Positions 21,183 to 60,991 are shown, counted from the stretch's first letter. The stretch: 64,000 nucleotides of DNA from Bacteroidales bacterium (GCA_016287075.1 JAEEVC010000015.1:1-64000); one strand, 5' to 3'. Notes: a model not told the origin generated them from the letters alone. Program-made: numbers and translations.

Positions 21183-21186
<4 letters not shown>
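20242..21186 (-). CDS. fcl: GDP-L-fucose synthase
   Basis: [72 protein letters not shown]. Confidence 0.95.
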
Positions 21187-22277
<1,091 letters not shown>

Positions 22278-22350
22278 ATCGGTAATCTGCATATTTTCAG
22301 AATATCTACAAATATACGCCTTTTTTTGCGGCCGTTTGCTTTTTTTCCGA

Positions 22351-22358
22351 TATATTTG
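22351..22358 (+). promoter_or_regulatory. -7 element TATATTTG upstream of the WecG-like gene
   Basis: TAnnTTTG 19 nt upstream of ATG 22377. Confidence 0.5.
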
Positions 22359-22376
22359 CCGCAAACTTGCACGGAA

Positions 22377-24209: not shown

Positions 24210-24225
24210 AAGCGAGTCTGATTAA

Positions 24226-31531: not shown

Positions 31532-31534
31532 TTG

Positions 31535-32422: not shown

Positions 32423-33390
32423 CTTCCCTTGGTGAACAGGTTCTTGAGCCGGTCCATCCGGTTCAGCACCTGGCGCTCCCGGATGTATCTTTTCCCAATC
32501 TGCTCCCGGTTCCTGCGCCAGGCCTTCTCCAGCGGCTGATCAAAGATGGCGGTAAGCCAGTTTTCCAGACACCGGATCTGTGAATCGACGGAGGGCGCGT
32601 CCGGCTGCAGCATCGGTTCCCTGAGATAGGCCATGTAAAGCGCGTCATCCGCATCGATCCGGGCCACTTCCTTCACGAGATCCTCCGGGGAGGCGAAGGC
32701 GGAGGCGTCGATGAACGCCTTCGGATTGAAAACCCGGGACACGTCCGGGTCGCCCCAATAAATCGGAACGGTCCGTGCAGCAAAGGCTTCCACGAGTTTT
32801 TCCGTCGTATAACCGCTGTGGCTCCCGTTTTCAAAACAAAGGGAAAACTTATGGCTCTTCTCGAAGGCCAGCTTGTCCGCCACCGGCCCGCCGACATTGT
32901 TCCGATACCGTCCTCCGGAGTCGACCGTGCGGTAAGCGCTCAGGGCATCGAAAGCCCGGTTCCGCACGGGATTGTCGGGATTGCTGACCACGAAACTGCA
33001 GAATCCGGTTTTTTCCGCGCCAAGGTCCCACCCTTCAGGAAGAAGGTGCTTCCCCACCGCCTTGTCCAGCATGGCGCGGTCATAGAACAGATAAAGAGGG
33101 AACCGCAGGTAGCGGTCGGCATATTCCATCCATTCGAAACCGATGGCATAATCGCAGGCGTTGAAGTCCGGAGCAAGATTCTCCCCGGTATGGAAGATCT
33201 TGACGCAACGGTCCGGAACCGTCCAATGGGACTCTCCGAACACGGAGAAGAATACGTAATCCGCGTCATCGCAGACCTCGACCTCATAATGCTTCCGCAG
33301 CAATTTGAGCGGAAGATACTCATCCCGGGAAGCGGAAAAACCGCTCCAGTAATCGAGGAAACGGACCTTGACGACTTTTCTATTCTCCAT
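32419..33390 (-). CDS. GT10-family fucosyltransferase
   Basis: KFSLCFENGSHSGYTTEKLVEAFAARTVPIYWGDPDVSRVFNPKAFIDA, the GT10 donor-binding signature. Confidence 0.93.
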   Translation of the reverse strand: MENRKVVKVRFLDYWSGFSASRDEYLPLKLLRKHYEVEVCDDADYVFFSVFGESHWTVPDRCVKIFHTGENLAPDFNACDYAIGFEWMEYADRYLRFPLYLFYDRAMLDKAVGKHLLPEGWDLGAEKTGFCSFVVSNPDNPVRNRAFDALSAYRTVDSGGRYRNNVGGPVADKLAFEKSHKFSLCFENGSHSGYTTEKLVEAFAARTVPIYWGDPDVSRVFNPKAFIDASAFASPEDLVKEVARIDADDALYMAYLREPMLQPDAPSVDSQIRCLENWLTAIFDQPLEKAWRRNREQIGKRYIRERQVLNRMDRLKNLFTKGR

Positions 33391-34840: not shown

Positions 34841-35977
34841 CTATCTTCCCTTGTACATCTCCTCGTAATACTTCTGGTACTCCCCGCTTGTGACGTTGTC
34901 CAGCCAGTCCTGGTTGTCCAGGTACCAGCGGACGGTCTTTTCCAAGCCTTCCTCGAACTGGAGCGACGGTTCCCAGCCGAGCTCCTTCTGGAGCTTCGTG
35001 GAGTCGATCGCGTAGCGGAGGTCGTGGCCGGCACGGTCCGTGACATACGTAATGAGATCGTCATCAGCACCTTCCGGACGGCCGAGGAGGCGGTCCGTGG
35101 TACGGATGAGCGCCTTGACGATGTCGATGTTCTTCCACTCGTTGAAGCCGCCGATGTTGTAGGTCTCGGCAACCTTGCCTTCATGGAAGATCAGGTCGAT
35201 GGCCCGGGCGTGGTCTTCCACATAAAGCCAGTCGCGGACGTTTTCGCCCTTCCCGTAGACCGGAAGCGGCTTGCGGTGGCGGATATTGTTGATGAACAGC
35301 GGAATCAGTTTCTCCGGGAACTGGTAGGGGCCATAATTGTTCGAGCAGTTGGTCACGACGGTCGGCATGCCGTAAGTGTCGTGGAAAGCGCGGACGAAAT
35401 GGTCGCTGGAGGCCTTGGCGGCGCTGTACGGGCTGTGAGGCTGGTACTTCAGGTCTTCGGTGAAGAACTGCTCGCCGTATGCCAGGTGATGACTGCCGGA
35501 GGAGGCTTTCGTCGTGAAAGGCGGCTCGATCCCCTCCGGATGGGTCATTTCCAAGGCGCCGTACACCTCGTCCGTGGAAATATGGTAGAAGCGCTTGCCT
35601 TCATATTTCTCCGGCAGGCTTTCCCAGTAAAGGCGGGCCGCCTGCAGGAGGGAAAGCGTTCCCAGCACGTTCGTGCGTGCAAAGGTGAAGGGGTCCTTGA
35701 TGGAACGGTCGACGTGGCTCTCCGCCGCAAGGTGGATGACCCCGTCGACGCGCTCTTCCCGCATCAGGGCCAGCACGCCGTCGAAATCACAGATGTCCAT
35801 CCGGACGAAGCGGTAATTCGGACGGTCTTCGATATCCTTGAGGTTCGCGAGATTGCCCGCGTAGGTCAGTTTGTCCAGGTTGATGATCCGGTAGTCCGGA
35901 TACTTGTTCACAAGAAGCCGCACGACGTGGCTGCCGATGAATCCGGCGCCGCCGGTGACGAGGATCGTTCTGTTCAT
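34841..35977 (-). CDS. rfbB: dTDP-glucose 4,6-dehydratase
   Basis: ILVTGGAGFIGSHVVRLLVNKYPDYRIINLDKLTYAGN; YHISTDEVYGAL; SPYSAAKASSDHFVRAFHDTYGMP. Confidence 0.96.
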   Translation of the reverse strand: MNRTILVTGGAGFIGSHVVRLLVNKYPDYRIINLDKLTYAGNLANLKDIEDRPNYRFVRMDICDFDGVLALMREERVDGVIHLAAESHVDRSIKDPFTFARTNVLGTLSLLQAARLYWESLPEKYEGKRFYHISTDEVYGALEMTHPEGIEPPFTTKASSGSHHLAYGEQFFTEDLKYQPHSPYSAAKASSDHFVRAFHDTYGMPTVVTNCSNNYGPYQFPEKLIPLFINNIRHRKPLPVYGKGENVRDWLYVEDHARAIDLIFHEGKVAETYNIGGFNEWKNIDIVKALIRTTDRLLGRPEGADDDLITYVTDRAGHDLRYAIDSTKLQKELGWEPSLQFEEGLEKTVRWYLDNQDWLDNVTSGEYQKYYEEMYKGR

Positions 35978-36510
35978 AACTCTCTCAGCAAGGGATGATT
36001 CCGGTCTTTCGCGGAAAGCAGGACGCGGTCGGCGGGAATCCGCCAGTCGATGGCGAGGTCCGGATCGTCCCAGGCCACGGCACCCTCCGCTTCCGGATGG
36101 TAATAATTGTCACATTTATATTGGAACACAGCCGTTTCCGAAAGGACGGAGAAGCCATGTGCGAATCCGCGGGGGATGAACAGCTGCCGGTGGTTCTCCC
36201 CGGTGAGTTCGACGGAAGCATGCCGGCCATAGGTCGGAGACCCCGGACGGAGATCTACCGCCACGTCGAGGACGCGGCCTTCGACAACCCGGACGAGCTT
36301 CGCCTGCGCCCACTCCCCTTTCTGGAAATGGAGACCGCGCACGACGCCGTAGGAGGAACGGCTTTCGTTGTCCTGGACAAAGTCCACCTCGCCGACGGCA
36401 TCGGTGAAGGCCTTGCGGTTGAAGGCCTCGAAGAAATAACCCCGGCTGTCGCCGAAAACGCGCGGCTCCAGGATCAGGAGGCCGGGGATACCGGTTTCAA
36501 TGACATTCAT
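35974..36510 (-). CDS. rfbC: dTDP-4-dehydrorhamnose 3,5-epimerase
   Basis: DSRGYFFEAFN, VDFVQDNESRSSYGVVRGLHFQ, LFIPRGFAHGFSVLSE; start at MNVIETGIPG. Confidence 0.95.
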   Translation of the reverse strand: MNVIETGIPGLLILEPRVFGDSRGYFFEAFNRKAFTDAVGEVDFVQDNESRSSYGVVRGLHFQKGEWAQAKLVRVVEGRVLDVAVDLRPGSPTYGRHASVELTGENHRQLFIPRGFAHGFSVLSETAVFQYKCDNYYHPEAEGAVAWDDPDLAIDWRIPADRVLLSAKDRNHPLLREL

Positions 36511-37379
36511 AACCTTTCCATGCATTTTTTCAGGGAGTCATACCAGTGCGGGACCGTGATCCCGAAGGTCTGCTTCACCAGGGTTTTGTCCAGGACGGAA
36601 AAATGCGGCCGGCGGGCCTTGGAGGGGAATTCGTCGCTGTGGCATGGCCGGATGTCGCAGGTGTTGCCGCTCAGGTCGCGGATGGCGCAGGCGAAATCAT
36701 ACCAGGAGCAGACCCCCTCGTTCGAATAATGGTAAACGCCGGTCTTTCCGAGCTGTCCGGTTTCGATGACATGCAGGATCAGCGCTGCCAGGTCGGCCGC
36801 ATACGTCGGTGTGCCCACCTGGTCGAAAACCACGTTCAGGCTGTCCCTGTCCGCCGTCAGCTGGCGCATCGTCTTGACGAAATTCTTCCCGAAGGGGGAA
36901 TAGAGCCAGGCCGTCCGGAACAGGATGTACCGGCACCCGGCGTCTTTCACGGCCTGTTCTCCCTGGAGTTTCGTGACGCCGTACACCCCAAGCGGGTCCG
37001 TCGGCCAGTCCTCCCGACAGGGCAGGCAGCGCTCTCCCTGGAAAACGTAGTCCGTCGAGATATGGATGAGCGTCGCCCCGCGCTCCTTCGCCGCCTCGGC
37101 GAGGATGCCGGGGGCGACATGGTTCAGCAGGTCCGCGAGGGCGTAATCATCCTCCGCTTTGTCCACGTTCGTATAGGCCGCGCAGTTGACAATCAAGTCG
37201 ATCCGCTCGGAATCGCAGATCAGCCGGACGGCATCCCGGTTCGTGATGTCGAGGTAGGTGGTATCGACACCCGGAATCCGGGAGACATCCGTAAAGAGGA
37301 AACGGTGGGCGGAGCGGAGCGAGGCTTCGCGCAGTTCCGTCCCAAGCTGGCCGTTGGCACCGGTAACAAGGATGTTCAT
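36507..37379 (-). CDS. rfbD: dTDP-4-dehydrorhamnose reductase
   Basis: MNILVTGANGQLGTELRE; NCAAYTNVDKAE; ISTDYVFQGE; start at MNILVTG. Confidence 0.95.
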   Translation of the reverse strand: MNILVTGANGQLGTELREASLRSAHRFLFTDVSRIPGVDTTYLDITNRDAVRLICDSERIDLIVNCAAYTNVDKAEDDYALADLLNHVAPGILAEAAKERGATLIHISTDYVFQGERCLPCREDWPTDPLGVYGVTKLQGEQAVKDAGCRYILFRTAWLYSPFGKNFVKTMRQLTADRDSLNVVFDQVGTPTYAADLAALILHVIETGQLGKTGVYHYSNEGVCSWYDFACAIRDLSGNTCDIRPCHSDEFPSKARRPHFSVLDKTLVKQTFGITVPHWYDSLKKCMERL

Positions 37380-37479
37380 AAATATAAAATACTCCCATTC
37401 CCCCGGCTTCCTGAAGCAGTCGAGGGGATGAATCCCGCGGCGCAAACTCCTGTCCAGGAGCGCTTTCCGAGGGATTTAT

Positions 37480-38205
37480 CTACTCTTGCCCGGCCTCACG
37501 ACACATCAGGTCGGAGAGCAGGCCGATCGTCTTCTTGTCCAGGACCTTCTTCGTGTCCTGCTCCTGCAGGGCATGGAAACGGTGGCAATCCGATCCCACC
37601 ATGCAGTACCATCCGCGGCCGAGCAAATACTCCGCCCGCTCCTTCGAATCATTCCGGTAGGAGCCGACGATCGACGGAAGGTTCAGTTGCAGCAAGACGC
37701 CCATCTCATGGAGGCGCTTGTAATCATCTTTCCGCATGTAGCGGTATCTTTCCGGATGGGCCAGGATGGGGCGGTATCCGGCCGCCAGCGTCCGCTCGAG
37801 CACACCCCATAGGTCAATAGGCGGAGACCAGGTCGAAGTTTCAACCATCACGTGATCTTCGCCGTGCGTCAGCAGGTCTTTGGCGGCGAGGCGTTCCTCA
37901 TAGAGGTTGTCCATCATGTATTCGGCGGCCAGCCCGAAAGACAGGCCGCCCTTGTATATGGCCGACAGTTCGGCAAAGCGCTGCCGGATGCCGTCCGTGG
38001 TATTCGGCACATCCTCCATCACATGGGGGGTGAACCAAAGGGTTTTCAGGCCCTGTTCCTCCAGCCAGGCGAGGATGGAGAGGGAATCTTCCGGCGTCTT
38101 GACCCCGTCGTCGAGGCCATAGAGGATATGGCTGTGGTTGTCGACGGCGCCCTGGAGCAGGCCGCTGCCGACAACCGAGTCTTTATTCCGGAAGAGTCCG
38201 AACAT
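37480..38205 (-). CDS. CpsB/CapC-like PHP tyrosine-protein phosphatase
   Basis: VDNHSHILYGLDDGVKTPEDSL; FTPHVMEDVPNT; PILAHPERYRYM; GSDCHRF. Confidence 0.88.
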   Translation of the reverse strand: MFGLFRNKDSVVGSGLLQGAVDNHSHILYGLDDGVKTPEDSLSILAWLEEQGLKTLWFTPHVMEDVPNTTDGIRQRFAELSAIYKGGLSFGLAAEYMMDNLYEERLAAKDLLTHGEDHVMVETSTWSPPIDLWGVLERTLAAGYRPILAHPERYRYMRKDDYKRLHEMGVLLQLNLPSIVGSYRNDSKERAEYLLGRGWYCMVGSDCHRFHALQEQDTKKVLDKKTIGLLSDLMCREAGQE

Positions 38206-38210
38206 CCCGC

Positions 38211-40634
38211 CTATGCCTTCTTGTCTTCCTCTCCCGTCGAACCGTAGCCGTAGCCATAGCCGTAACCATAGCCGTAGCCATAGCCATAGCCCTTTGCCTG
38301 ATAGGTATCGACACCGTTGAGGATGATGGCCATGCGGTTATACTTCCCGTCCTCGTGCATCGTTTCAACGGCAGGGAGCGCACGCTTGTCGAACATCTCC
38401 GCCCTGATGATGAACAGCGAGATGTCGGCGCAAGGGGCGACGATGGAGGTATCCGCCACCAGGTCGACCGGAGGGCAGTCCAGGAAAACATAGTCGAACT
38501 TGTCGCGCAGACCGTTGATCATCTCGGAGAAACGGTCGGAGACCAGCAGTTCCGCAGGGTTCGGAGGGAGGGAACCGACCGGCAGCAGGAAGAGCGAATC
38601 CTGGACGGTACGGATGGACGAAAGGAGGTCGTCGTGCTTGCCGTTGAGATAGGAGGCGACGCCGGACGAATTCATTTTCAGCGTCTTGCTGAGGGTCGCC
38701 TTACGAAGGTCCAGGTCGACCATCAGGACCCTCGAGCCCTTCAGGGCCATCGAAGCGGCGAGGTTCAGCATGGTGAAGGTCTTACCGGCATTGGGATTGA
38801 ACGAGGTCGTCAGGATCACCTTGTCGTTGCCGGAACCCGAATGGATCATCAGGTCGAGGTTGGTACGCAGGACGCGGAAGGCCTCGTTGATCATGTCACG
38901 CTTGCCGCTCTGGACATAGACCCGGGTATGGGTGTCGTCGAACTTGTCCGCCCGCAGGCGCTGCCAGTAATTGCCGTTGATACCGATCTGGGGAATCTCC
39001 GCCAGGAACGGCGTGGAGAGGGTAGCCAGGTCATTGCGGCCGTGGACGGCGTTGTCAAGAACCTTGCGCACGTAGAAGTAGGCGAAAGGAATGCCGAATC
39101 CGAGCACGAGGGAAATCAGGATGATCATCACCCGGTTCGGAGCGACCGGCTTGGACGTACCGGTAGGCCGCTGGATCAGACGGGTGTTTCCGACGGTCAG
39201 CAGGCTCTGGAGTTCATTTTCCTCCCGTTTCTGGAGCAGGAAGATGTAGAGCTGCTCCTTGACCTTCTGCTGGCGCTCGATGGAGAGGAGTTCAAGTTCC
39301 TGTCCGGACGTGGAAGAAAGGCGGCTCAGGATGTCACGTTCCTGATTGTTGATCTTGTTGACCTCCAGCTGGAGCATGGAAATCAAATTGTCGATGGAGC
39401 GGTTGATGGAGACCTTGTAGGCGTCCAGCGTGTTGTTCAGGTCCTGCACCAGCGGGTTGGCCGCACTCGACAGGGCCAGAAGGCGCTCCCGTTCCAGGTA
39501 GGCGCGGTTGTATTCCGCGATCTGCAACTCCACCTTGTCGCCTTCGATTCCCATATTGGCGGGAATCATGTCGTCCGCGTGGGTGGGATCGTTGATCCAG
39601 CTCTTGATCGAACGGGCCACTTCCAACTGCTTGGATTTCTCGAAGGCCTGGGTCGAATAGATGCTGGACTGCTGGATGATGGCGTTGGCCGTAGACTGGA
39701 TGTTCGTCAGGCCGTGGGCTTCCTTGTAGTCCTTCAGGTCGGATTCGATGCCGCCCAGTTCCCTTTCAATGACATTCAGACGGTCGTTGATGAACTCGGA
39801 GGTATTGCGGGCGGAACGGTTCTTGTCCGTCACCCACATGTCATTGTAAATGTCCAGCAACGTCGAAAGGATGCTTTCGGCGCGGGCCGGGAAAACATCC
39901 TGCAGGGAAAGGACGACGACGGAAGACTGCTTGCTGGAGAGGGACGAAGTCAGCCGGCCGCAATAACTCTTGGCACGGACGGCGGCGGGGACCCAGGAGA
40001 TGGAAATCACGTCGTTCCAATCACTTATATGCGATGTCGGGATAAAATACAGCGGGCCCACGGGCGTCTGGATGGTGTCGTTCAGGACACCGTCAATCCG
40101 CTCCTTGGACAGCGGTTCTTTCCCGACGTGGAACGACTCGAGGCGGAAGGAGTTCTCGCCGGTCTTGACCAGGTCGAAGGAGAAGGAGGACGCGGTGACA
40201 GGCTGGCAGATCGTCATTTCGACCGGCGTGTTCTTGTACATCTCGCGCCAACGGAAGAACTGCCTGTCCACGTACATCGTTTCCAGATTCAGCCGCTCGA
40301 CCACCTGCTCCATCAGGTCCGGGGAGGCGAAGGCCTCAACCTCGTTATCGACATTGGTGCCCTGGGAATAACGGCGGTAGCCGCCCGTAAAGGCCGTCAG
40401 GTCCCGCATCATCGAGTTCTGCGAATCTTCGTCCACGATGACCTTTTCCGTCCGGACGAAGGAATTCGGAATCTTATAAAGGCGCATTCCCGCAAAGGCG
40501 AGGAACACCAGGAGCGAGAAGATGTACCACCATTTGTGTTCCCAGATCAAGCCCCAGAGATCGGACATCTGCAGGGACTTCTCTTCATCTGTATTCGTTA
40601 CGACGGGAAGGGCGTTCTGTTTTGCGTCAGCCAT
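38211..40634 (-). CDS. Wzz/Wzc-type polysaccharide co-polymerase and BY-kinase with (GY)n C-terminal tail
   Basis: Wzz N-terminus; LTTSFNPNAGKTFTMLNLAASMALKGSRVLMVDLDLRKATLS; DYVFLDCPPVDLVAD; tail GYGYGYGYGYGYGYGYGYGS. Confidence 0.93.
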   Translation of the reverse strand: MADAKQNALPVVTNTDEEKSLQMSDLWGLIWEHKWWYIFSLLVFLAFAGMRLYKIPNSFVRTEKVIVDEDSQNSMMRDLTAFTGGYRRYSQGTNVDNEVEAFASPDLMEQVVERLNLETMYVDRQFFRWREMYKNTPVEMTICQPVTASSFSFDLVKTGENSFRLESFHVGKEPLSKERIDGVLNDTIQTPVGPLYFIPTSHISDWNDVISISWVPAAVRAKSYCGRLTSSLSSKQSSVVVLSLQDVFPARAESILSTLLDIYNDMWVTDKNRSARNTSEFINDRLNVIERELGGIESDLKDYKEAHGLTNIQSTANAIIQQSSIYSTQAFEKSKQLEVARSIKSWINDPTHADDMIPANMGIEGDKVELQIAEYNRAYLERERLLALSSAANPLVQDLNNTLDAYKVSINRSIDNLISMLQLEVNKINNQERDILSRLSSTSGQELELLSIERQQKVKEQLYIFLLQKREENELQSLLTVGNTRLIQRPTGTSKPVAPNRVMIILISLVLGFGIPFAYFYVRKVLDNAVHGRNDLATLSTPFLAEIPQIGINGNYWQRLRADKFDDTHTRVYVQSGKRDMINEAFRVLRTNLDLMIHSGSGNDKVILTTSFNPNAGKTFTMLNLAASMALKGSRVLMVDLDLRKATLSKTLKMNSSGVASYLNGKHDDLLSSIRTVQDSLFLLPVGSLPPNPAELLVSDRFSEMINGLRDKFDYVFLDCPPVDLVADTSIVAPCADISLFIIRAEMFDKRALPAVETMHEDGKYNRMAIILNGVDTYQAKGYGYGYGYGYGYGYGYGSTGEEDKKA
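38241..38292. repeat. 6-bp tandem coding repeat for Gly-Tyr tail of the Wzc-like kinase
   Basis: Plus strand ccgtagccgtagccatagccgtaaccatagccgtagccatagccatagcc. Confidence 0.9.
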
Positions 40635-40662
40635 ATTGCGTTGAGATAAAAGGATTCTGTGT

Positions 40663-41472
40663 CTATCGGGTCATGGTAATGATGAGGTTCGCGACCGTGA
40701 TGGCGATGGAACCGAGGGAAATCCAGAACGAACCGGACTTGAAGTAGTTCTCGTTGATCGTGGACTGGCCGGCGCGGACCTCGTTCGGCGTCACGTAAAT
40801 GACGTCGTTCTGCTGAAGATAGTAGGCGGGGGAATCGAACATGTCGCTCCGGGTCAGGTTGACCTCGTAGGTGTTCCGCTTGCCTCCCTGCTCCCGGATG
40901 ACCATCACGTTGTCGCGGCGGCCGTAGATCGTCAGGTCGTGGGCCAGAGCCAGCGCCTGAAGCAGCGTTATCTTGTCTCCGGACACCGCATAGGTACCCG
41001 GATTCGTCACCTCGCCCAGGACGGAAATCTTGAAGTTCAGGTATTCGACGGTCACGACGGCATCCCTCAGGAGGCCTTTTTCCGACAGTTTATCGGCAAT
41101 CAGGTCCTGCAGCTCCCAGCGGCTCATACCCGAAACGTAGAGTTTGCCAAGGGCCGGGAAAATGATGTATCCGTCGTTATCGACCACATATCCGGAGATA
41201 TACTGGCCGCCGCCGCCGCCGAACTCGGAACCGGCGAAATACGACGCGATGGACTTGTTGAACTGGAACGAGAGTTTCGGATCGGCGCTGTTGACGACGA
41301 TCGAAAGCTGGTCCTGCGGCTGGATGATGATTCCCTTGTTGACCGCCTTGCCGGTCGGGGCGTCCCCGCTGATGTCCTGCAGGTAATTGATGTTCTTGTA
41401 GGTCTCCGGATTACAGGCGGCCACCCCGCCGAGGAGCGCAAGAGCCACGAATAAACGAACTATTTTTCTCAT
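40663..41472 (-). CDS. Wza-like polysaccharide export lipoprotein
   Basis: Lipobox GGVAACNPE; IIQPQDQLSIVVNSADPKLS; SVLGEVTNPGTYAVSGDKITLLQALALAHDLT; start at MRKIVRLF. Confidence 0.92.
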   Translation of the reverse strand: MRKIVRLFVALALLGGVAACNPETYKNINYLQDISGDAPTGKAVNKGIIIQPQDQLSIVVNSADPKLSFQFNKSIASYFAGSEFGGGGGQYISGYVVDNDGYIIFPALGKLYVSGMSRWELQDLIADKLSEKGLLRDAVVTVEYLNFKISVLGEVTNPGTYAVSGDKITLLQALALAHDLTIYGRRDNVMVIREQGGKRNTYEVNLTRSDMFDSPAYYLQQNDVIYVTPNEVRAGQSTINENYFKSGSFWISLGSIAITVANLIITMTR

Positions 41473-41518
41473 ACGTAGTTTTGTTGTCAAACCAAAGGGC
41501 ATAAAGCCAATATTCGTG

Positions 41519-43137: not shown

Positions 43138-44769
43138 CTAAGACAGGCGCAACTGGGCGCCGCACCACTCCGCAATCCGCTCGCGGTGGGTGATGAAGAT
43201 CATCGTCTTCCCCTCCGCATGGGCGGTCAGTCCCTCCATCAGCTTCTCCTCGGTCTCGGGATCGAGCGAGGAGCTGAATTCGTCGAGGAGCAGGATGCTG
43301 CCGGGGCGGAGCAACCCGCGCGCGATGGCGATGCGCTGGGCCTGGCCTTCGCTCAGGCCGGCGCCGCCCTCGCCGCAGACGGTGTCCAGTCCGTCCGGAA
43401 GATCCAGCACGAACCGCGCCTGGGCCAGTTCCAGGGCCCATTCCATGCGCTCGTCCGTCGCATCCGGATCCCCCATCAGGAGGTTCTCGCGGACCGTTCC
43501 GCTGAAGAGCGTATTGCCCTGCGGCACATAGACAAGGTTGCAGCGGGTACGGGGCGAGGCAGGCTCTTCCCGCCCGCCGCTGAAGAGCGTCACGCGCCCG
43601 TCCGTTGGCTTGAGAAGCGCGAGCATCAGGCGGATGAGCGTGCTCTTCCCCACCCCGGTCTCGCCGACGATGGCGGTCCGGGAGCCCGGCTCAAAGCGGA
43701 AACTCAGGTGTTCCAGGATGTTCCGCTGCCCGTCCGGATAGCGGAACGTGACGTCGTCCACGGCAATGCCGGCGGGCGCCTCCATCCAGACCGGCTCCCC
43801 TTCCTCCTCCTTCGGGATGTCCTCGAGCTCCATCAGGCGGTCGATGGACGCCGTCGCGAAGATGAACGAGGGAATCTGCCGGGTGAGGTTGACGGTCGGC
43901 CGCTGGATCTGGCTGACCAGCTGGAGGAAAGCCGTCATCATACCGAAGGTCATGCCGCCGTGGAGGATGCCGTAGGCGCCCCAGAGGAAGGCGGCGATAT
44001 AGCCGAAGGAGAAGGCGGCGCCGACCATGGTCCGGGCGAAGATGTTCAGCCGCGTCCGCTCGACGACCTGGCCGTATTCCGTGTTCTGGAGGTCGTCCAG
44101 GCGCGTTTCCATCCGCTCTTCATTCTCCATCGAGCGGATGACGACCCGGTGCTGGAGACTCTCCTGGAGATGGCTCTGCACCTTGCTTTCGGTATCGCGG
44201 ATCCCGCGGGTCATCGTCCGCATCCGCCGGAAGAAGACTTTGCTGAAGACCGCGAACAGCGGCGTGACCACCACCAGCAGCAGGGCGAGCCGCCAGTCCA
44301 TCATGCACATGAAGACCACGGCGGCGGCCAGCTGGAACAAGGTGGTGACCAGCTGCGGGACATCCGAACAGATGACCCCCGTCACGGTGGACACGTCGGT
44401 TTCCAGCCGGTTGATCATGTCCCCCGAATGGTGGCGTTCCTTGCCGATCCACTCCGCCTGCATCAGGTTGCTGTAGAGGCCTTTCCGTATGATGAAGTTC
44501 ATTCGGGAGTTCGTCAGGCTCTCCAGCCGCATGTTGAGCGCGGTCACGGCGAGCCGGAGCGCGGTCACCCCGAGCACCAGGCCGGTGAACAGCCCGATGC
44601 TGCCGGCCGCATCGCCCGTCGCGATATCGACGATCCGCTTGCAGAGCCAGATGAAGGTCAGGTTGAGGGCAATGCTGACCAGTCCGAGCAAGACGTTCAG
44701 TACCAAGCGCTTCCGAACACCCTTCGAGCGGGCATACAGCCATTTGAAATATTTCAGGATCGTTTTCAT
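43138..44769 (-). CDS. ABC transporter, fused permease/ATPase, no C39 peptidase
   Basis: Walker A GETGVGKST, signature LSEGQAQRIAIARGLL, Walker B ILLLDEFSSSLD; start at MKTILKYFKWLY. Confidence 0.9.
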   Translation of the reverse strand: MKTILKYFKWLYARSKGVRKRLVLNVLLGLVSIALNLTFIWLCKRIVDIATGDAAGSIGLFTGLVLGVTALRLAVTALNMRLESLTNSRMNFIIRKGLYSNLMQAEWIGKERHHSGDMINRLETDVSTVTGVICSDVPQLVTTLFQLAAAVVFMCMMDWRLALLLVVVTPLFAVFSKVFFRRMRTMTRGIRDTESKVQSHLQESLQHRVVIRSMENEERMETRLDDLQNTEYGQVVERTRLNIFARTMVGAAFSFGYIAAFLWGAYGILHGGMTFGMMTAFLQLVSQIQRPTVNLTRQIPSFIFATASIDRLMELEDIPKEEEGEPVWMEAPAGIAVDDVTFRYPDGQRNILEHLSFRFEPGSRTAIVGETGVGKSTLIRLMLALLKPTDGRVTLFSGGREEPASPRTRCNLVYVPQGNTLFSGTVRENLLMGDPDATDERMEWALELAQARFVLDLPDGLDTVCGEGGAGLSEGQAQRIAIARGLLRPGSILLLDEFSSSLDPETEEKLMEGLTAHAEGKTMIFITHRERIAEWCGAQLRLS

Positions 44770-45905
44770 TCGCCTTTGAGGAGTCTGCCGAGCCCGTAGC
44801 CGAAGGCCCCGGAGAAAAACCGGAGCGACGCGGCGGGGAACGTGAGGAAATGGCGCAGCCGGTCCCGGACGACCAGCATCCAGAAGGAATGGACCTTCCG
44901 CACGAGGTAGGATTCCTCGCCGCGGGTCCGGTCCTCGTTCTTCCCGAAATTGCCGCTGCTGCGGATGAAGCGCCAGATGCGCTCCTCCCGCCGGCCGGAA
45001 CGGACGGGTTTCCAGGAGACTGCGTCCACCGCTTCCGCGGGCATGGCCAGGAAGGTGCCGGCAAATGCGAGGAATGCGTGCCAGAGCCGCGTCATGCCGA
45101 GATACCCGATGTCGGCGCGGAGCTGCGCCTTGTCGATTTCCGCATGGTGCCGCTCCAGCAGGAGGGCCCAGTCGATGATCTGCCGGAGACCGATGCCGCC
45201 GGACCAGTAATGGTGGAGGAAATGGACGAAGACATAGACGGCGCTGAAGTTCACGTCCGGCACCGGAATGGGATGCCCCTCGACCGGACACATCGCGACA
45301 CCGCTCCGGAACATCCGCTCCTGCAGCACTTTCAGCTTCGCATCCAGGGAGCGGGACATCAGGGTGGAAATCGTGCCGTGCAGTTCCACCTCGATGCTGC
45401 CGAAGAACATCCCGAGGTGGAGGATTTCGGTCGCCTCCTCCTCGACGCGCGTCGCCTTCGGGACAAGGATCTCCCGGGCGCGGGCATAGTCTTCCGGCGG
45501 CAGCAGGAGGTCGATGTCACCGGGCTGCCGGCGCATCGGGTCGGGATAGTTCAGGCCCAGCGGCTGCCCTTTGACCACGGCGACCCGGAGGCCGGCCAGG
45601 GCCTTCACCAGCCGGGGAAGGGCGCGGTTGAGCTGGCCGTTGCGGGTTTCGGTGAACATCACGTCGCCGAGGAAGGGGTCCAGCGTCTCCTCCTGCGGGG
45701 GGAGGCATTCCGCCGGAAGATGGTGGATGCCGTCGGTCACCAGGCCGACGACGGTCTGCCGGAAAGAGAGGTCATACAGCGCTGCCCAGTCGGTATCCGG
45801 GGGAAACAGCGCGGCATCGGGCGCCCCGCCCCTCAGGCCGGAGCGGAGCAGGGAGAAAAAACGCTGTTCCAGCAGCGTCATTCGAGGATGCCGGCTTCCG
45901 CCCAC
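44766..45905 (-). CDS. Uncharacterised nucleotidyltransferase (NTP_transf_5-like)
   Basis: VAVVKGQPLGLNYPDPMRRQPGDIDLLLPPEDYARAREIL; VELHGTISTLMSRSLD; 4-bp overlap with the ABC gene. Start may be MTLLEQRFF. Confidence 0.78.
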   Translation of the reverse strand: MGGSRHPRMTLLEQRFFSLLRSGLRGGAPDAALFPPDTDWAALYDLSFRQTVVGLVTDGIHHLPAECLPPQEETLDPFLGDVMFTETRNGQLNRALPRLVKALAGLRVAVVKGQPLGLNYPDPMRRQPGDIDLLLPPEDYARAREILVPKATRVEEEATEILHLGMFFGSIEVELHGTISTLMSRSLDAKLKVLQERMFRSGVAMCPVEGHPIPVPDVNFSAVYVFVHFLHHYWSGGIGLRQIIDWALLLERHHAEIDKAQLRADIGYLGMTRLWHAFLAFAGTFLAMPAEAVDAVSWKPVRSGRREERIWRFIRSSGNFGKNEDRTRGEESYLVRKVHSFWMLVVRDRLRHFLTFPAASLRFFSGAFGYGLGRLLKGE

Positions 45906-46147
45906 TGCTCGCAGAGTTTCCCTGCGTCGGCGAGCGCGGTCTCCGGATCGACCTCGTATTCCTCCAGCAGCAGGTCGCGGAGCGTTTCCGGGGTGAATTC
46001 GCCCTGGCCGTTCACCTTCGCGAAAAGGTAGGCGGCCGACTCGTTGAGGCTGACCAGCTTGCTGAAATTGACATTTTTCGGGCCCACGGCCTGGACGACG
46101 TTCTGGCCGCAGAGGGTCCGCATGATGAATCCTTCCTTAATCTTCAT
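45878..46147 (-). CDS. PqqD-like protein (RiPP recognition element fold)
   Basis: 89 aa; NVVQAVGPKNVNFSKLVSLNESAAYLFAKVNGQGEFTPETLRDLLLEEYEVDPETALADAGKLCEQWAEAGILE. Confidence 0.8.
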   Translation of the reverse strand: MKIKEGFIMRTLCGQNVVQAVGPKNVNFSKLVSLNESAAYLFAKVNGQGEFTPETLRDLLLEEYEVDPETALADAGKLCEQWAEAGILE

Positions 46148-46646
46148 ATTGTTTCAAAGCTTCTGCATATTGGGGTTTGAGCCACCGGCGGTTCCACGGA
46201 AGGTTCCGGTAGATGAACAGCAGGTAGCGGCGGACAGGCCGGAGGGCCTGCCAGAGATGGACCTTCCGGAGTTCCCGCGGCGAATAGGGATCCACGGCCT
46301 TTTCCCCGTCCCGGAGGATGGAGACGGCCTTGCCGAAGATCTGGCTCCGGAGGACGCGCTCCCGGTTCACGGGAACGCCGTCGCCCTGGATCTCAACCCG
46401 GTCGCCGGCAACGGAGAGGACCCGGTGCATCACATAGCGGCCGCCCTTTTCCGGCCCGATATGGAAAAGGACGATGTCGTCGGGGCGCACCTCGCCGACG
46501 GGCTCCAGGACGACGAGGTCCCGCTCGCCGCGGATGAACGGGAGCATGCTGAAGCCCTTGACGGGAATCGTGACCGAATGGCCTTCCTCCAGCATCTGAC
46601 GCACCGGGACGAAGAATTCGTCGTTGGCTATGACCATCTTTTCCAT
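46137..46646 (-). CDS. S24/S26-family signal-peptidase-like protein
   Basis: VTIPVKGFSMLPFIRGERDLVVLEPVGEVRPDDIVLFHIG...YVMHRVLSVAGDRVEIQGDG; start at MEKMVIANDEFF. Confidence 0.82.
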   Translation of the reverse strand: MEKMVIANDEFFVPVRQMLEEGHSVTIPVKGFSMLPFIRGERDLVVLEPVGEVRPDDIVLFHIGPEKGGRYVMHRVLSVAGDRVEIQGDGVPVNRERVLRSQIFGKAVSILRDGEKAVDPYSPRELRKVHLWQALRPVRRYLLFIYRNLPWNRRWLKPQYAEALKQYED

Positions 46647-54973: not shown

Positions 54974-55005
54974 TTTGCGAATAACAAGAGTTTATTTTAT
55001 ATTTG
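54974..55005 (+). promoter_or_regulatory. Bacteroidetes promoter TTTG-N20-TATATTTG
   Basis: TTTG at 54974-54977 and TATATTTG at 54998-55005. Confidence 0.65.
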
Positions 55006-55046: not shown

Positions 55047-55193
55047 ATGGAGAAAGAATGTAAAAAATGGTATGTAACGCCGGGAGCCAGGCTCTCAGCG
55101 CTGCAGCTCGAACCGTTCTGCGCGAGCGGCGAGCAGGAAGGCAACAACGGCCAGATTGACGACCTCATCAATTTCGATGATGTCTGGTTCTAA
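55047..55193 (+). CDS. Short peptide P1 (48 aa), first cistron of lipoprotein unit 1
   Basis: MEKECKKWYVTPGARLSALQLEPFCASGEQEGNNGQIDDLINFDDVWF; conserved with P2 in the next unit; not in ORF track as such. Confidence 0.8.
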   Translation: MEKECKKWYVTPGARLSALQLEPFCASGEQEGNNGQIDDLINFDDVWF

Positions 55194-55206
55194 TCGGAGA
55201 AGCGGT

Positions 55207-57699
55207 ATGAAAAAGGTATTGTTCTTCGCGGCCCTCGCCGCCTGCCTCTTCTCTGCATGCCAGAAAGAGATGAACGCACCCGCCGGGACGACCCTCACGG
55301 CGAGCATCCTCCAGACCCGTACTTCCCTCCAGAGCGACATGAAGGTCTTCTGGAGCGCCGGGGACCAGATCTTTGTCAACGGACAGGTTTCCAAGCCCGT
55401 CAGCGCCGCCGGCGCCTCCGCCAGCTTCCAGTTCGATGCGACCCTCTCCGCCCCGTTCAAGGCCGTCTATCCGGCCGCCTTCACCCAGGACGGGGAAGTC
55501 ATCACCCTGCCGGCCGAACAGGCCGCCGCTGACGGCACCTTCGCGGACGGCGTCGCCCCGATGATCGCCTATGCGGAGAGCGGCAACACCCTGCAGTTCA
55601 AGCATGTCGCCGCCTATATCCGCGTTCCCGTCAAGAGCGCCAAGACCATCACGAGCGTCACCCTCACCGGCAACAACGGCGAGCAGATCTGCGGTGACTT
55701 CGCCGTCGATTTCGCCGCCGGCACCGTCGCCACGACCGATGCCACCGACGAAAACCGGGCCGTCAAGGTCCTCGTCGGCAAGAGCGAAGCGACCCTCGTC
55801 ATCGCCGTTCCGGCCGCCACGTACGGCAAGGGTTTCACGCTGACGGCTGAAGACGCCGACGGCAAGAAGATGGAATATGTCAAGGCCTCCACGGCCGAAC
55901 TCGTCGCCGGCCAGGTCAACACCCTCCCGCAGGTCGTCTTCGAAGGCGTACCGGAAGGCACCGGCTCCGGCACCGAGGCGGATCCGTACCTGATCAAGAC
56001 GGCCGAGGATGTAGCAGCCATCTCCACCAGGGCCGCCAATGAATCCACGACCTACTTCAAGTTCGTCGACAACATCGACATGTCCTCCATCACGGAATAC
56101 ACCCCGGCCAACGTCGATTTCAACAACGCCAAGCAGCGTGTCATCATCGACGGCAACCACAAGGTGCTCAGGAACTGGAACTGGGTCAACACGACCACCA
56201 AGTATCCGGGGCTCGTCGGTGTCCTCGACGGTGTCATCAAGGACCTCGTCTTCATGGACTGCACCATCGAGACCCAGGTTTCTTCCCCGCTCGGCCTCGC
56301 CTGCGGCTGGGCCGGTGTTTCCAATGCCTCCCTCCACGGCGCTCTCGAAAATGTCCACGCCGTGCGCTGCCACGTCATTACGAACGTCGCGGGGAACAAC
56401 CACACGGGCGGTCTCGTCGGAAGTGCCCAGAATACGGAATTCATCAACTGTTCCTTTGACGGCATCGTCGAGCGGGTTCCCGCAAATTCCAGCAACACCT
56501 ATGTCGGCACCGGCGGCATCGTCGGCGGCTATCCCAATGCCGATCAAACCGGAACGCTGAACAAGATCGAGAACTGCTCCGTTTCCGGCCAGATCATCGA
56601 CAGGTCCCGTTCCACGGGAGGCATTATCGGATTCATGAACTCCAGTACCGTCGTCGACATCAAGAACTGCCATGTCGCAGCGGACATTTCCAACACCCGC
56701 GACGTCGTCGGCGGCATCTGCGGCTATTACGGAGGCGGCACCGTCCAGAACTGCACCTTCAAGGGCAACCTCGTTTCCGAGCAGACCTCCAGCAGTTTCG
56801 TCGGCGGCATCATCCCGCACACCAACTTGAGGCTCGAAGTCTACAACTGCCATACGGAAGGTACCATCACCTGCCCCGGTGACATCGTCGGCGGCATCGT
56901 CGGCCAGTGCAACTCGGTCGCCAACAGTGAAACGGTCAGTCAGGGCGGTCCCTGCATCGTCAAAGAGTGCTGGAGCACGATGAACATCAAGTGCAAGGGA
57001 GCCAGCGGCGGAATCATCGGCCGTTCTTCCAACAACTGGCCGCTCATCGTTGAGAACTGCTGGTACAGCGGTACCCTCAGCGGCGATGGCGCAGCCAATG
57101 CCCAGGGCGTCGGCGGTATCCTCGGCGACGGCCCGAAGCGCACGACCGTCAAAGACTGCTGGAACGATGCCGACATCATCGGCGGCTTTGGCATCGGCGG
57201 CGTGGCCGGACGGCTCTTCGGCCGCCAGGGCAGTTCCGCCAGCCTGGACGACGATGTCGAGTCCTCGATGACCGGCTGCATCTACTGGGGCCCGGGCATC
57301 AAGACCTCTACCGATCCCGGGGAAAGGGCCTCCAACCACTACAGCAGCGGTGCCATGGTCGGCTGCAGCAGCCGTCCGAACACGCTGAAGGACAACTACC
57401 GCAACCCGGCCATGACCTTCCAGGTGTACAGGTACGCCCCGCTCAACGAACTCTTCGACCACGCGGACACCAGTCCGTCGGCGCCGCTTGTCGAGCCGTA
57501 CAACTTCGGTGACACGCCGGTCGCGCTTTCCGAGACCGAAGGCGATACCGAAGACTTCAAGTGGTTCTCCCCGTACCACGGCAAGGCCGCCGCGGCCGGT
57601 TCGACCATCTCCTCGCTCGCGAAGACCATCGGCTGGGATGAGTCGGTTTGGGATCTCTCCGGAGAAAAGCCCATGCTGAAGAACACGCCCAAGGAGTAA
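55207..57699 (+). CDS. Lipoprotein: fimbrillin-like N-terminal region plus GLUG-like repeat C-terminal region (copy 1)
   Basis: MKKVLFFAALAACLFSACQKEMN lipobox; TRTSLQSDMKVFWSAGDQIFVNG; repeats such as GGLVGSAQNTEFINCSFDGIVE and GGIIGFMNSSTVVDIKNCHV. Confidence 0.82.
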   Translation: MKKVLFFAALAACLFSACQKEMNAPAGTTLTASILQTRTSLQSDMKVFWSAGDQIFVNGQVSKPVSAAGASASFQFDATLSAPFKAVYPAAFTQDGEVITLPAEQAAADGTFADGVAPMIAYAESGNTLQFKHVAAYIRVPVKSAKTITSVTLTGNNGEQICGDFAVDFAAGTVATTDATDENRAVKVLVGKSEATLVIAVPAATYGKGFTLTAEDADGKKMEYVKASTAELVAGQVNTLPQVVFEGVPEGTGSGTEADPYLIKTAEDVAAISTRAANESTTYFKFVDNIDMSSITEYTPANVDFNNAKQRVIIDGNHKVLRNWNWVNTTTKYPGLVGVLDGVIKDLVFMDCTIETQVSSPLGLACGWAGVSNASLHGALENVHAVRCHVITNVAGNNHTGGLVGSAQNTEFINCSFDGIVERVPANSSNTYVGTGGIVGGYPNADQTGTLNKIENCSVSGQIIDRSRSTGGIIGFMNSSTVVDIKNCHVAADISNTRDVVGGICGYYGGGTVQNCTFKGNLVSEQTSSSFVGGIIPHTNLRLEVYNCHTEGTITCPGDIVGGIVGQCNSVANSETVSQGGPCIVKECWSTMNIKCKGASGGIIGRSSNNWPLIVENCWYSGTLSGDGAANAQGVGGILGDGPKRTTVKDCWNDADIIGGFGIGGVAGRLFGRQGSSASLDDDVESSMTGCIYWGPGIKTSTDPGERASNHYSSGAMVGCSSRPNTLKDNYRNPAMTFQVYRYAPLNELFDHADTSPSAPLVEPYNFGDTPVALSETEGDTEDFKWFSPYHGKAAAAGSTISSLAKTIGWDESVWDLSGEKPMLKNTPKE

Positions 57700-57740
57700 T
57701 CCTGCCTGCCAGCGTCCCCGGACGCTTACCGCTCCATGAG

Positions 57741-57774
57741 AACCGTCCCGGACGAAAAATCCGGGACGGTTTTC
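57741..57774 (+). terminator. Rho-independent terminator after lipoprotein copy 1
   Basis: aaCCGTCCCGGAcgaaaaaTCCGGGACGGtttt. Confidence 0.85.
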
Positions 57775-57794
57775 CTGTTCTTGCGGCCCATTGA

Positions 57795-57825
57795 TTGCTT
57801 TTTCGGAAAGGAATCCGTAAATTTG
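57795..57825 (+). promoter_or_regulatory. Bacteroidetes promoter TTG-N20-TAAATTTG
   Basis: TTG at 57795-57797 and TAAATTTG at 57818-57825. Confidence 0.6.
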
Positions 57826-57858
57826 ACCGCTTGATGACACTACAACAACCATCTCCAT

Positions 57859-58008
57859 ATGAAAAGGGAAAACAAGAAAACATGTTATGCAGCGCCACGG
57901 ACCAGGTTCGTCGGCATGCAGCTCGAACCGTTCTGCGCGAGCGGCGAGCAGGAAGGCAACAACGGCCAGATTGACGACCTCGTCAATTTCGATGATGTCT
58001 GGTTCTAA
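57859..58008 (+). CDS. Short peptide P2 (49 aa), first cistron of lipoprotein unit 2
   Basis: MKRENKKTCYAAPRTRFVGMQLEPFCASGEQEGNNGQIDDLVNFDDVWF; C-terminal 28 residues differ from P1 by one. Confidence 0.8.
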   Translation: MKRENKKTCYAAPRTRFVGMQLEPFCASGEQEGNNGQIDDLVNFDDVWF

Positions 58009-58021
58009 TCGGAGAAGCGGT

Positions 58022-60514
58022 ATGAAAAAGGTATTGTTCTTCGCGGCCCTCGCCGCCTGCCTCTTCACTGCATGCCAGAAAGAGATGAACGCTCCCGCCG
58101 GGACGACCCTCACGGCGAGCATCCTCCAGACCCGTACTTCCCTCCAGAGCGACATGAAGGTCTTCTGGAGCGCCGGGGACCAGATCTATGTCAACGGACA
58201 GGTTTCCAAGCCCGTCACCGCTGCCGGCGCTTCCGCCAGCTTCCAGTTCGACGCGGCCCTCGCGGCCCCGTTCAAGGCCGTCTACCCGGCCGCCTTCACC
58301 CAGGACGGCCTCAGCCTCACCCTCCCGGCCGAACAGGCTGCCGCCGACGGCACCTTTGCCGATGGCGTCGCCCCGATGCTTGCTTCCACAGAGAGCGGCA
58401 ACACCCTGCAATTCAAGCATGTAGCTGCCTACATCCGCGTCCCCGTCAAGAGCGCCAAGACCATTACGAGCGTCACCTTCAGCGGCAATGAAGGGGAACA
58501 GGTTTGCGGCAGTTTCGGAATCAACTGGGATGAAGGATTCCTCATCGATACGGATGCAACCGAAGAGAACCAGTCCGTCAAGGTCCTTGTCGGCAAGAGC
58601 GCAGCGACCCTGGTCATCGCCGTCCCGGCCCGCACCTATTACAAAGGCTTCACGCTGAAGGCAGAAGATGCCGACGGCAAGGTCATGACCTATACCAAGG
58701 TCTCCGCGACCGAGCTCGTCGCCGGCCAGGTCAACACCCTCCCGGAGGTCGTCTTCGAGCCCGTTCCGGAAGGGGCCGGCTCCGGCACCGAGGCGGATCC
58801 GTACCTGATCAAGACGGCCGAGGACCTCGCAGCGATGTACACCAAGGTCGTCAAAGGCCAGATGACCTATTTCAAGATGGTGGACAACATCGACATGTCC
58901 TCCATCTCGGAATGGACGCCGGTCAACGTCGATTTCGCCAATGAGAACGGTGCGGAAGGCATCATGTTCGACGGCAACCACAAGGTGATCAGCAACTGGC
59001 ATTATGTCAACACCACCAGCAAGTATCCCGGATTCGTCGCCGTCCTGCACGGCGAAGTGAAGAACGTGGTCTTTGCGGACTGCGTCGTCGAGAACTCCGC
59101 CGGTTCCCCCTGCGGACTCGTCTGCGGATGGAACGGCGTCTCAAACGCATCGCTCCATGGCCATATCGAGGATGTCCACGCCGTGCGCTGCCAGGTCATC
59201 AGCACCCACAAGACCTCCAACGTCGGCGGTATCGCCGGCAGTGCGCACAACGCCGAATTCATCAACTGCACCTTCGACGGCCTCGTCGAACGCCGCTGCG
59301 AGGCGAACAGCAACGACACGGAGAAGAGCTCGTACAGACCGATCGGAGGCATTCTCGGACAGGTCGCACAGAAGGGCGACGACATGGTCAAGATGGAAGG
59401 CTGCTCGACAAGCGGCTCCCTGGAGAGCGGCAACGGCCGGGGTGTCGGCGGCCTGATCGGGACCTGCAACGGCAGCGCCGTCATCCACTTGAAGAACTGC
59501 CATTCCACCATGTACATCCATTCCAAGCACGACGTCATCGGCGGCCTGGTCGGTTACTGGGCAGGCGGCACCCTGGACCATTGCTGGTATGAAGGCATCG
59601 TCGTCAACGAAACGGCGACGAACAAGATCTCCTATATGGGCGGCCTCGTCGGTCACACGAACCTCGGCATCGTTTTCACGAACTGCCACTCCGCGGGCCG
59701 GATCGAAGGGCCCGGACAGATCGTCGGCGGCATCCTCGGCCAGAGCAACGCGGCCGCTACCGCCACGCCCGTCATCTTCAAGGAGTGCTGGAGCACCATG
59801 ACCCTCATCGCCGGCGGCAGCACCATCGGCGGCATCTGCGGCCGGGGCAGCGCGAACCAGCCGCTTACCATCGAGAACTGCTGGTACAGCGGCGAGATCG
59901 TCGGCGGGAAATCGACGGCCTATGTAGGCGGCATCCTGGGTGACGGCCCGAAGAATACGACCGTAACCAACTGCTGGACAGACGCCCAGATCGAATCCGG
60001 CTATGGCACGGGCGGTGTCTGCGGCCGTCTCTTCGGACGCCAGGGCAGCAGTGCCGATGTGAACGGCGACATGGAAACGGCCATGACCGGCTGCATCTAC
60101 TGGGGCCCCTCGCTGAGGACCAACACGGAAGGCGGCGAAAAGTGTTCCAACCACTACAGCAGCGGTGCCATGGTCGGCTTCGCCAGCCGTCCCACCACCT
60201 TCAAGGACAACTACCGTCCGGCCGTGCTTACTTTCGAGTACCAGCGCTATGCTCCGCTCAACACCCTCTTCGACCACGCGGACAGCAGCCCGGCGACCCC
60301 GCTCGTCCAGCCGTACAACTTCGGTGACGCGCCGATCACGCTTTCCGAGGCAGAAGGCGACATCGAGGACTTCAAGTACTATTCCCCGTACCACGGCAAA
60401 GCCGCTGCGGGAGATGCCACGGTCTCCTCGCTCGCCAAGGCCATCGGCTGGGATGAGTCGGTTTGGGATCTCTCCGGAGAAAAGCCCATGCTGAAGAACA
60501 CGCCCAAGGAGTAA
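58022..60514 (+). CDS. Lipoprotein: fimbrillin-like plus GLUG-like repeats (copy 2, tandem paralog)
   Basis: Near-identical signal peptide and C-terminus (ESVWDLSGEKPMLKNTPKE) to copy 1; diverged centre. Confidence 0.82.
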   Translation: MKKVLFFAALAACLFTACQKEMNAPAGTTLTASILQTRTSLQSDMKVFWSAGDQIYVNGQVSKPVTAAGASASFQFDAALAAPFKAVYPAAFTQDGLSLTLPAEQAAADGTFADGVAPMLASTESGNTLQFKHVAAYIRVPVKSAKTITSVTFSGNEGEQVCGSFGINWDEGFLIDTDATEENQSVKVLVGKSAATLVIAVPARTYYKGFTLKAEDADGKVMTYTKVSATELVAGQVNTLPEVVFEPVPEGAGSGTEADPYLIKTAEDLAAMYTKVVKGQMTYFKMVDNIDMSSISEWTPVNVDFANENGAEGIMFDGNHKVISNWHYVNTTSKYPGFVAVLHGEVKNVVFADCVVENSAGSPCGLVCGWNGVSNASLHGHIEDVHAVRCQVISTHKTSNVGGIAGSAHNAEFINCTFDGLVERRCEANSNDTEKSSYRPIGGILGQVAQKGDDMVKMEGCSTSGSLESGNGRGVGGLIGTCNGSAVIHLKNCHSTMYIHSKHDVIGGLVGYWAGGTLDHCWYEGIVVNETATNKISYMGGLVGHTNLGIVFTNCHSAGRIEGPGQIVGGILGQSNAAATATPVIFKECWSTMTLIAGGSTIGGICGRGSANQPLTIENCWYSGEIVGGKSTAYVGGILGDGPKNTTVTNCWTDAQIESGYGTGGVCGRLFGRQGSSADVNGDMETAMTGCIYWGPSLRTNTEGGEKCSNHYSSGAMVGFASRPTTFKDNYRPAVLTFEYQRYAPLNTLFDHADSSPATPLVQPYNFGDAPITLSEAEGDIEDFKYYSPYHGKAAAGDATVSSLAKAIGWDESVWDLSGEKPMLKNTPKE

Positions 60515-60554
60515 TTCCCGGGCAGCGTCCCTCGGACGCTCACCGTTCCATGAG

Positions 60555-60593
60555 AACCGTTCCGGACGAAAAATCCGGGACGGTTTTCTTTTT
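60555..60593 (+). terminator. Rho-independent terminator after lipoprotein copy 2
   Basis: aaCCGTTCCGGAcgaaaaaTCCGGGACGGttttcttttt. Confidence 0.85.
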
Positions 60594-60607
60594 TGAGAAA
60601 AAAGTCC

Positions 60608-60615
60608 TATCTTTG
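60608..60615 (+). promoter_or_regulatory. -7 element TATCTTTG upstream of tRNA
   Basis: TAnnTTTG match 11 nt upstream of the tRNA. Confidence 0.5.
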
Positions 60616-60626
60616 CAGTCCGATCC

Positions 60627-60698
60627 GCCTCTGTAGTTTAAAGGATAGAATAACGGATTCCGGTTCCGTTGGTCCCGGTTCGATTCCGAGCGGAGGTA
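60627..60698 (+). tRNA. tRNA-Arg (anticodon CCG)
   Basis: Acceptor GCCTCTG/CGGAGGT (two GU wobbles); D-arm GTTT..GAAT; anticodon arm ACGGA-TTCCGGT-TCCGT; T-arm CCCGG-TTCGATT-CCGAG with one mismatch; CCA not encoded. Confidence 0.85.
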
Positions 60699-60703
60699 CA
60701 CGG

Positions 60704-60735
60704 GAAGCCGGCTCAGCAGTGAGCCGGCTTCTTCT
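60704..60735 (+). terminator. Stem-loop terminator after the tRNA
   Basis: GAAGCCGGCTCA-GCAG-TGAGCCGGCTTC followed by ttctatta; 12-bp perfect stem. Confidence 0.7.
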
Positions 60736-60775
60736 ATTATATATACCCGCCTATATACCCCTACGCCCCCCCTTT

Positions 60776-60807
60776 TTTGGAAAGCCCGTTTTTTATGCCT
60801 AAATTTG
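60776..60807 (+). promoter_or_regulatory. Bacteroidetes promoter TTTG-N20-TAAATTTG
   Basis: TTTG at 60776-60779 and TAAATTTG at 60800-60807. Confidence 0.6.
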
Positions 60808-60853
60808 CGGCCGTTTTTTGCGTGGCGCCCACGCCGCGCACAAAGGATCGAAT

Positions 60854-60991
60854 ATGGAAGCAATGTATAAGAAACCTGAGGTCAGGACAACCATCCTGTT
60901 GATGGACAGGAACTTCTGCCTCAGCAATGTACCCGGAATCGGCGGAACGACCACCGATTACGAGGAAGACAACGAAAACCTGAACGGATAA
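60854..60991 (+). CDS. Short peptide P3 (45 aa), first cistron of lipoprotein unit 3
   Basis: MEAMYKKPEVRTTILLMDRNFCLSNVPGIGGTTTDYEEDNENLNG; stop overlaps the next start (TAATG). Confidence 0.72.
   Translation: MEAMYKKPEVRTTILLMDRNFCLSNVPGIGGTTTDYEEDNENLNG

Follow-up and report, generated by a model that had tools for sequence, protein, structure and literature searches.

Why three open reading frames (ORFs) of 45-49 aa should each stand directly ahead of a lipoprotein gene is the question raised by a 64,000-nt stretch of a Bacteroidales bacterium genome (GCA_016287075.1 JAEEVC010000015.1:1-64000), hereafter the window. A preliminary description had taken the three peptides, P1-P3, for a family whose core is cleaved or modified, or for a cofactor of the downstream surface protein. 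It is probable, in our judgement, that P1-P3 are precursors of a Bacteroidota system that resembles ribosomally synthesized and post-translationally modified peptides (RiPPs) and is related to the linear polyphosphorylated peptides (LPPs; Popov et al., Nat Commun 2026, PMC13381572), with one trans-acting cassette serving many dispersed, lipoprotein-paired precursors. The ORFs exist and translate as first described, promoters of the Bacteroidales type (TTG-N20-TAnnTTTG) lie 5' of all three, and the reported spacings to the lipoproteins were confirmed (13 nt for P1, 13 nt for P2 and a 1-nt overlap, TAATG, for P3).

A peptide family ahead of lipoprotein genes

P1-P3 match no Pfam or curated NCBIfam family, a scan of the genome's contigs queried with P1 alone returned no relative, and a codon-style DNA pattern search found nothing. 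Whole-genome hidden Markov model (HMM) searches of the 2.87-Mb assembly with a peptide-only profile (A2, then A3) recovered about 31 family members, approximately 28 of them beyond P1-P3, so that the pattern extends far beyond chance. A separate search with the lipoprotein N-terminal domain led to 27 places, many with a similar peptide in front. The peptide profile has no match among solved structures.

The family is held together by a compact motif: Tyr0 and Pro+3 occur in 31/31 members, Glu/Asp at Tyr+13/+14 in 29 and Ser at Tyr+18..20 in 30, giving a consensus of Tyr0, Pro+3, a hydrophobic strand, Glu/Asp+13, Phe+16 and Ser+18..20. The tail that follows is acidic (mean charge -5.8), and in 25 of the 31 it carries a Trp close to its end. 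In P1 the YxxP element occupies residues 9-12, with Glu at Tyr+13 and Ser at Tyr+18. The conserved Cys-Ser pair proposed in the preliminary description is accordingly only half retained, as the Ser is a family feature whereas the Cys, found at Tyr+17 in 6/31 members, is not conserved.

Adjacency to lipoproteins was assessed on the 12 members that the HMM had found without regard to gene context. Eleven of them stand immediately before a lipoprotein gene, counting one that opens a tandem pair of peptides, and the exception is the member on contig C8; the corresponding rate among the remaining short ORFs of these loci is 2.2%. (On contig C58, loci L059 and L048, two family peptides stand in tandem ahead of one lipoprotein.) A TAnnTTTG box is found in the 160 nt preceding 14/31 members, compared with 3.9% of random segments (P=2e-12). 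An origin as chance or non-coding ORFs, which could appeal to the commonness of small ORFs and to P1 and P2 being copies of each other, is already contradicted by HMM matches reaching E=2e-11, by this adjacency, by the purifying selection described below and by shuffling, in which 17 real peptides and 0 shuffled peptides scored at least 8 bits; we regard it as very nearly negligible.

The genes behind the peptides are fimbrillin-like (Mfa_like_1, PF13149) and GLUG lipoproteins of Bacteroidales. The description of all three downstream products in the window as fimbrillin-like stands for LP1, in which PF13149 and PF07581 both score above cut-off, whereas the Mfa_like_1 score of LP2 falls below it and LP3 has no Pfam match. 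LP2 is 84% identical to LP1 across the first 255 aa, the N-terminal domain; together with P1 and P2 the pair represents a recent tandem duplication with near-identical tails and lipoprotein starts, and two of the three examples are therefore not independent, P3 being divergent. We know of no reported link between fimbrillin-like or GLUG lipoproteins and a peptide-maturation system, and the papers searched contain none.

The candidate cassette and its known relatives

At the edge of an exopolysaccharide/capsule locus (sugar-nucleotide enzymes, glycosyltransferases, a flippase, CpsB/CapC, Wzc and Wza), the window carries one tight operon for a PqqD protein of the RiPP recognition element (RRE) type, an S26 peptidase, an NTP_transf_5 nucleotidyltransferase and an ATP-binding cassette (ABC) exporter. 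The PqqD gene is the sole PF05402 match in this genome. A gene for an HprK-like kinase lies on contig C23, 71 bp from a divergent family peptide whose lipoprotein starts 2 nt after it. The predicted PqqD structure (predicted local distance difference test score, pLDDT, 92) finds its best fold matches in the leader-bound lasso RREs TbiB1 and TfuB1, and the model of the S26 protein matches the LexA/signal-peptidase fold.

These genes make up the set known from the LPPs, as in the lpp cluster of Paenibacillus alginolyticus, in which LppK phosphorylates core Ser3 and LppS, assisted by the RRE, cleaves off the leader behind Phe-Glu-Thr (PMC13381572). Both systems share a SipW-like S26 peptidase, a discrete RRE, an HprK-like kinase, an NTP transferase, an MsbA-like exporter and a capsule-locus setting, and their peptides share a YxxP leader, a Glu before and a Ser after the presumed cut, and a variable C-terminus. 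Discrete RRE proteins of lasso-type pathways bind the motif YxxPx[L/V/I], and the LPP precursor consensus reads YxxPxVLxHQxIxFETxxS (PMC13381572), with Glu at Tyr+14 and Ser at Tyr+18 where the peptides described here have +13 and +18..20. In LppB, N33 fixes the leader proline and D70 holds the leader Tyr (PMC13381572); Asn35 and Asp74 of the PqqD protein, conserved in 81/81 and 80/81 sequences, appear to correspond to these residues as judged from the motif and the published numbering rather than from a sequence alignment. The S26 protein has the triad of LppS (S29/H68/D93; PMC13381572) as Ser33-His74-Asp89, invariant in 11/11 relatives.

The two systems also differ. LPPs have been called Bacillota-restricted, with an RRE clade confined to Bacillota and no mention of Bacteroidota in the main text (PMC13381572), and the passages searched of a Bacteroidales RiPP-mining paper and of the RRE-Finder paper do not mention the present system. 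An LPP cluster holds 1-3 precursors, an arrangement absent from this genome and present at L159, L154, L172, L201, G012, G050 and G061 in other genomes, whereas here about 31 are dispersed, each heading a surface-lipoprotein operon, and the kinase gene is separate from the remaining cassette. What would be new is the other phylum, the service of some 31 scattered precursors in trans and the pairing with a surface lipoprotein.

Paeninodin-type lasso peptides offer a second comparison, with a discrete RRE, an HprK-like kinase, an NTP transferase, an ABC exporter and a [Y/W]xxPx[L/V/I] leader motif in common. The possibility that P1-P3 are precursors of lasso or otherwise cyclised peptides rather than linear ones draws on the RRE, which is closest in sequence and fold to lasso B1 proteins, and on the occurrence of HprK-like kinases and NTP transferases in paeninodin-type clusters (PMC13381572). 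The protease here is, however, S26-like; the penultimate leader Thr is missing, no Thr being conserved at any position of the family alignment; and the genes scanned in the L159 operon include no macrolactam cyclase or B2 peptidase, nor is either apparent in the window's gene list, no genome-wide search having been made. We rate cyclisation as highly improbable.

Linkage in other genomes was surveyed through 80 PqqD loci from named records, in a search built on a closer PqqD subset, alignments A3 and A4 being too variable for pattern scans. An HprK-like kinase lies near 71 of them, an S26 peptidase near 65, an ABC exporter near 61 and NTP_transf_5 near 17. In Parabacteroides sp. An277 a single operon runs Wza, Wzc, CpsB-like protein, peptide, GLUG lipoprotein, kinase, S26, PqqD, NTP transferase and ABC exporter, and a family peptide with its lipoprotein also lies in the cassette operon of an uncultured Parabacteroides, of Bacteroides sp. 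An322 and of a Cryptobacteroides. Same-strand operons of this kind were recorded at L141/L159 (Parabacteroides), L154 (Bacteroides sp. An322), L172, L149 and L201; in G012 and G050 the peptide and lipoprotein follow the exporter by 68-70 bp in the same operon, and G061, from the same class and another family, has two operons with peptide, lipoprotein and cassette. The Glu is retained in 30/34 relatives and the Ser in 32/34. The peptide-lipoprotein linkage holds both within this genome and across genomes.

The cassette kinase gave a weak Hpr_kinase_C match below cut-off in the L159 operon scan; the Parabacteroides kinase also matches HprK_rel_A (TIGR04352) and SynChlorMet ScmC (TIGR04249) weakly, with scores far under the curated cut-offs, and is therefore not a member of either family. 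A lineage-specific peptide family had also been considered, A3 having matched next to nothing in other genomes at E<=0.001, and was set aside when looser, context-checked searches gave wide relatives.

A proposed scheme and its alternatives

As a hypothesis, the original suggestion that the core is cleaved or modified finds good support in the YxxP RRE-binding motif, the cassette of RRE, S26, kinase and exporter genes and the operon linkage in other genomes. Beyond the family, motif, promoters, lipoprotein linkage, cassette content, operon linkage and RRE and protease folds established above, we infer a scheme in which the PqqD/RRE protein would bind the leader, up to about Tyr+14, through YxxP; the HprK-like kinase would phosphorylate the conserved Ser; the S26/SipW-like protease would cut close to the conserved Glu and release the leader; and the core, acidic, ~20-35 residues long and often containing Trp, would leave the cytoplasm through the ABC exporter. 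NTP_transf_5 may contribute an additional group. Acting in trans, a single cassette would serve the scattered precursors, each presumably transcribed together with a surface lipoprotein, fimbrillin-like or other, and the mature core would probably work with that lipoprotein at the surface or in the capsule. The cut is placed near Tyr+14, and the Ser read as the kinase target, because of homology to LPP precursors; by this analogy the Ser is more likely a phosphorylation site than a cleavage site. The FCxS segment, earlier put forward as a signal-peptidase-like cleavage site, has been demoted, LPP cleavage lying before the phosphorylated Ser (PMC13381572).

Several observations weigh against this scheme. 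The kinase gene lies apart from the other cassette genes in this genome, the family member on contig C8 has no lipoprotein behind it, the HQ and FET of the LPP motif are absent from the peptides, and the PqqD-LppB equivalence was drawn from a motif and a paper's residue numbers. NTP_transf_5 accompanies just 17 of the 80 cassettes, most of which have no peptide found within 10 kb; such peptide-free cassettes fit a dispersal of precursors and are not proof of it. Co-occurrence is also weak and is not among our main arguments: of 119 genomes of the same order, taken as a fixed sample, 77 have PqqD and only 6 yielded peptides, all 6 with PqqD (P=0.07), with a short peptide profile that misses divergent members.

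Selection on the peptides bears on two further alternatives. P1 and P2 differ by 7.8/27.3 synonymous versus 15.2/116.7 nonsynonymous changes, a dN/dS of about 0.4 (Fisher P=0.04) and not near 1, and the tail of a five-copy subfamily ending NFLASGEGENAEPTPGTWSFFDELEME is without amino-acid change although identity among the lipoproteins that follow is down to 48-90% (dS 0.5-1.2). The DNA of tail and lipoprotein start is also unusually conserved in this subfamily, so that selection on the protein may be supplemented by gene conversion or by constraint on the RNA. The conserved DNA forms an island of ~115 nt, from the leader end through tail and stop to the first lipoprotein codons, with 95-100% identity between loci on C36, C43, C16 and C65 (L030, L031, L033, L034, L049), the promoters, leaders and lipoproteins having diverged; P1 and P2 show the same pattern, and the island is a possible site of gene conversion or recombination.

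Cis-acting leader ORFs, whose translation would set lipoprotein initiation by coupling or attenuation with a functionless product, could account for the very short gaps, the TAATG overlap and this island, where the few synonymous changes make RNA-level constraint possible. Such ORFs would nevertheless leave the RRE motif and the operons of RRE, protease, kinase and exporter unexplained; paralogues and genera whose DNA is unrelated retain the amino-acid motif, the stretch between motif and stop codon differs in length by about 17 residues, and the peptides show no conserved arrest sequence at the C-terminus. We consider this explanation unlikely. Unmodified cytoplasmic cofactors or chaperones of the adjacent-encoded lipoprotein, as the preliminary description had allowed, would suit the position of nearly all members in front of a lipoprotein; yet the lipoproteins carry signal peptides and would be expected to exit the cytoplasm, while the peptides show no such signal, the subfamily tail is invariant where its lipoproteins diverge, and the linkage of YxxP to an RRE cassette would again go unexplained, which together make that role quite improbable.

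If the LPP-related reading of P1-P3 is true, it proposes substrates for an unexplained RRE/S26/HprK cassette of gut Bacteroidales, extends to another phylum a RiPP family described as Bacillota-only, and ties an LPP-like system to a large and poorly understood set of fimbrillin-like surface lipoproteins. More tentatively, and with slightly greater doubt than confidence, phosphorylated peptides made by a single trans cassette from ~31 precursors, each dedicated to its own lipoprotein, might decorate, assemble or select fimbrillin-like proteins and capsule at the cell surface, and would then form a peptide system that spans the genome and serves the Bacteroidota envelope. The proposal opens to test the nature of the short ORFs, the purpose of the cassette and any joint action of surface lipoproteins with modified peptides.

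Arrangement of the loci in the window

Table 1. Positions of the peptide loci, the candidate cassette and the adjoining locus within the window.
Feature	Position	Strand	Details
P1 promoter, TTG-N20-TATATTTG	54975..55005	+	boxes start at 54975 and 54998
P1, precursor-like peptide, MEKECKKWYVTPGARLSALQLEPFCASGEQEGNNGQIDDLINFDDVWF	55047..55193	+	48 aa
LP1, Mfa_like_1 and GLUG lipoprotein, 830 aa	55207..57699	+	PF13149, 30.8 bits; PF07581
P2 promoter, TTG-N20-TAAATTTG	57795..57825	+	boxes start at 57795 and 57818
P2, precursor-like peptide, P1 duplicate with diverged leader	57859..58008	+	49 aa
LP2, LP1 paralogue	58022..60514	+	66% identity over full length
P3 promoter, TTG-N20-TAAATTTG	60777..60807	+	boxes start at 60777 and 60800
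P3, precursor-like peptide, divergent member	60854..60991	+	45 aa; profile match E=5e-8
LP3, lipoprotein with lipobox, 284 aa	60991..61845	+	TAATG overlap with P3
S26/SipW-like peptidase	46137..46646	-	PF10502 above cut-off; fold model
PqqD/RRE protein	45878..46147	-	PF05402
NTP_transf_5 nucleotidyltransferase	44766..45881	-	PF14907, E=6e-39
ABC exporter, membrane and ATPase domains, MsbA-like	43138..44769	-	
Exopolysaccharide/capsule locus	19370..41502	-	adjoins cassette

Beside the capsule locus, a lipoprotein and two ABC half-transporters are encoded on the minus strand (14791-19360), and no family peptide was noticed with them. A tRNA-Arg gene (anticodon CCG) occupies 60627-60699, between LP2 and P3. 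The last 4 nt of LP3 (ATGA) are shared with a gene for a PCMD-domain protein (61842-63002), which may be a member of the P3 operon.

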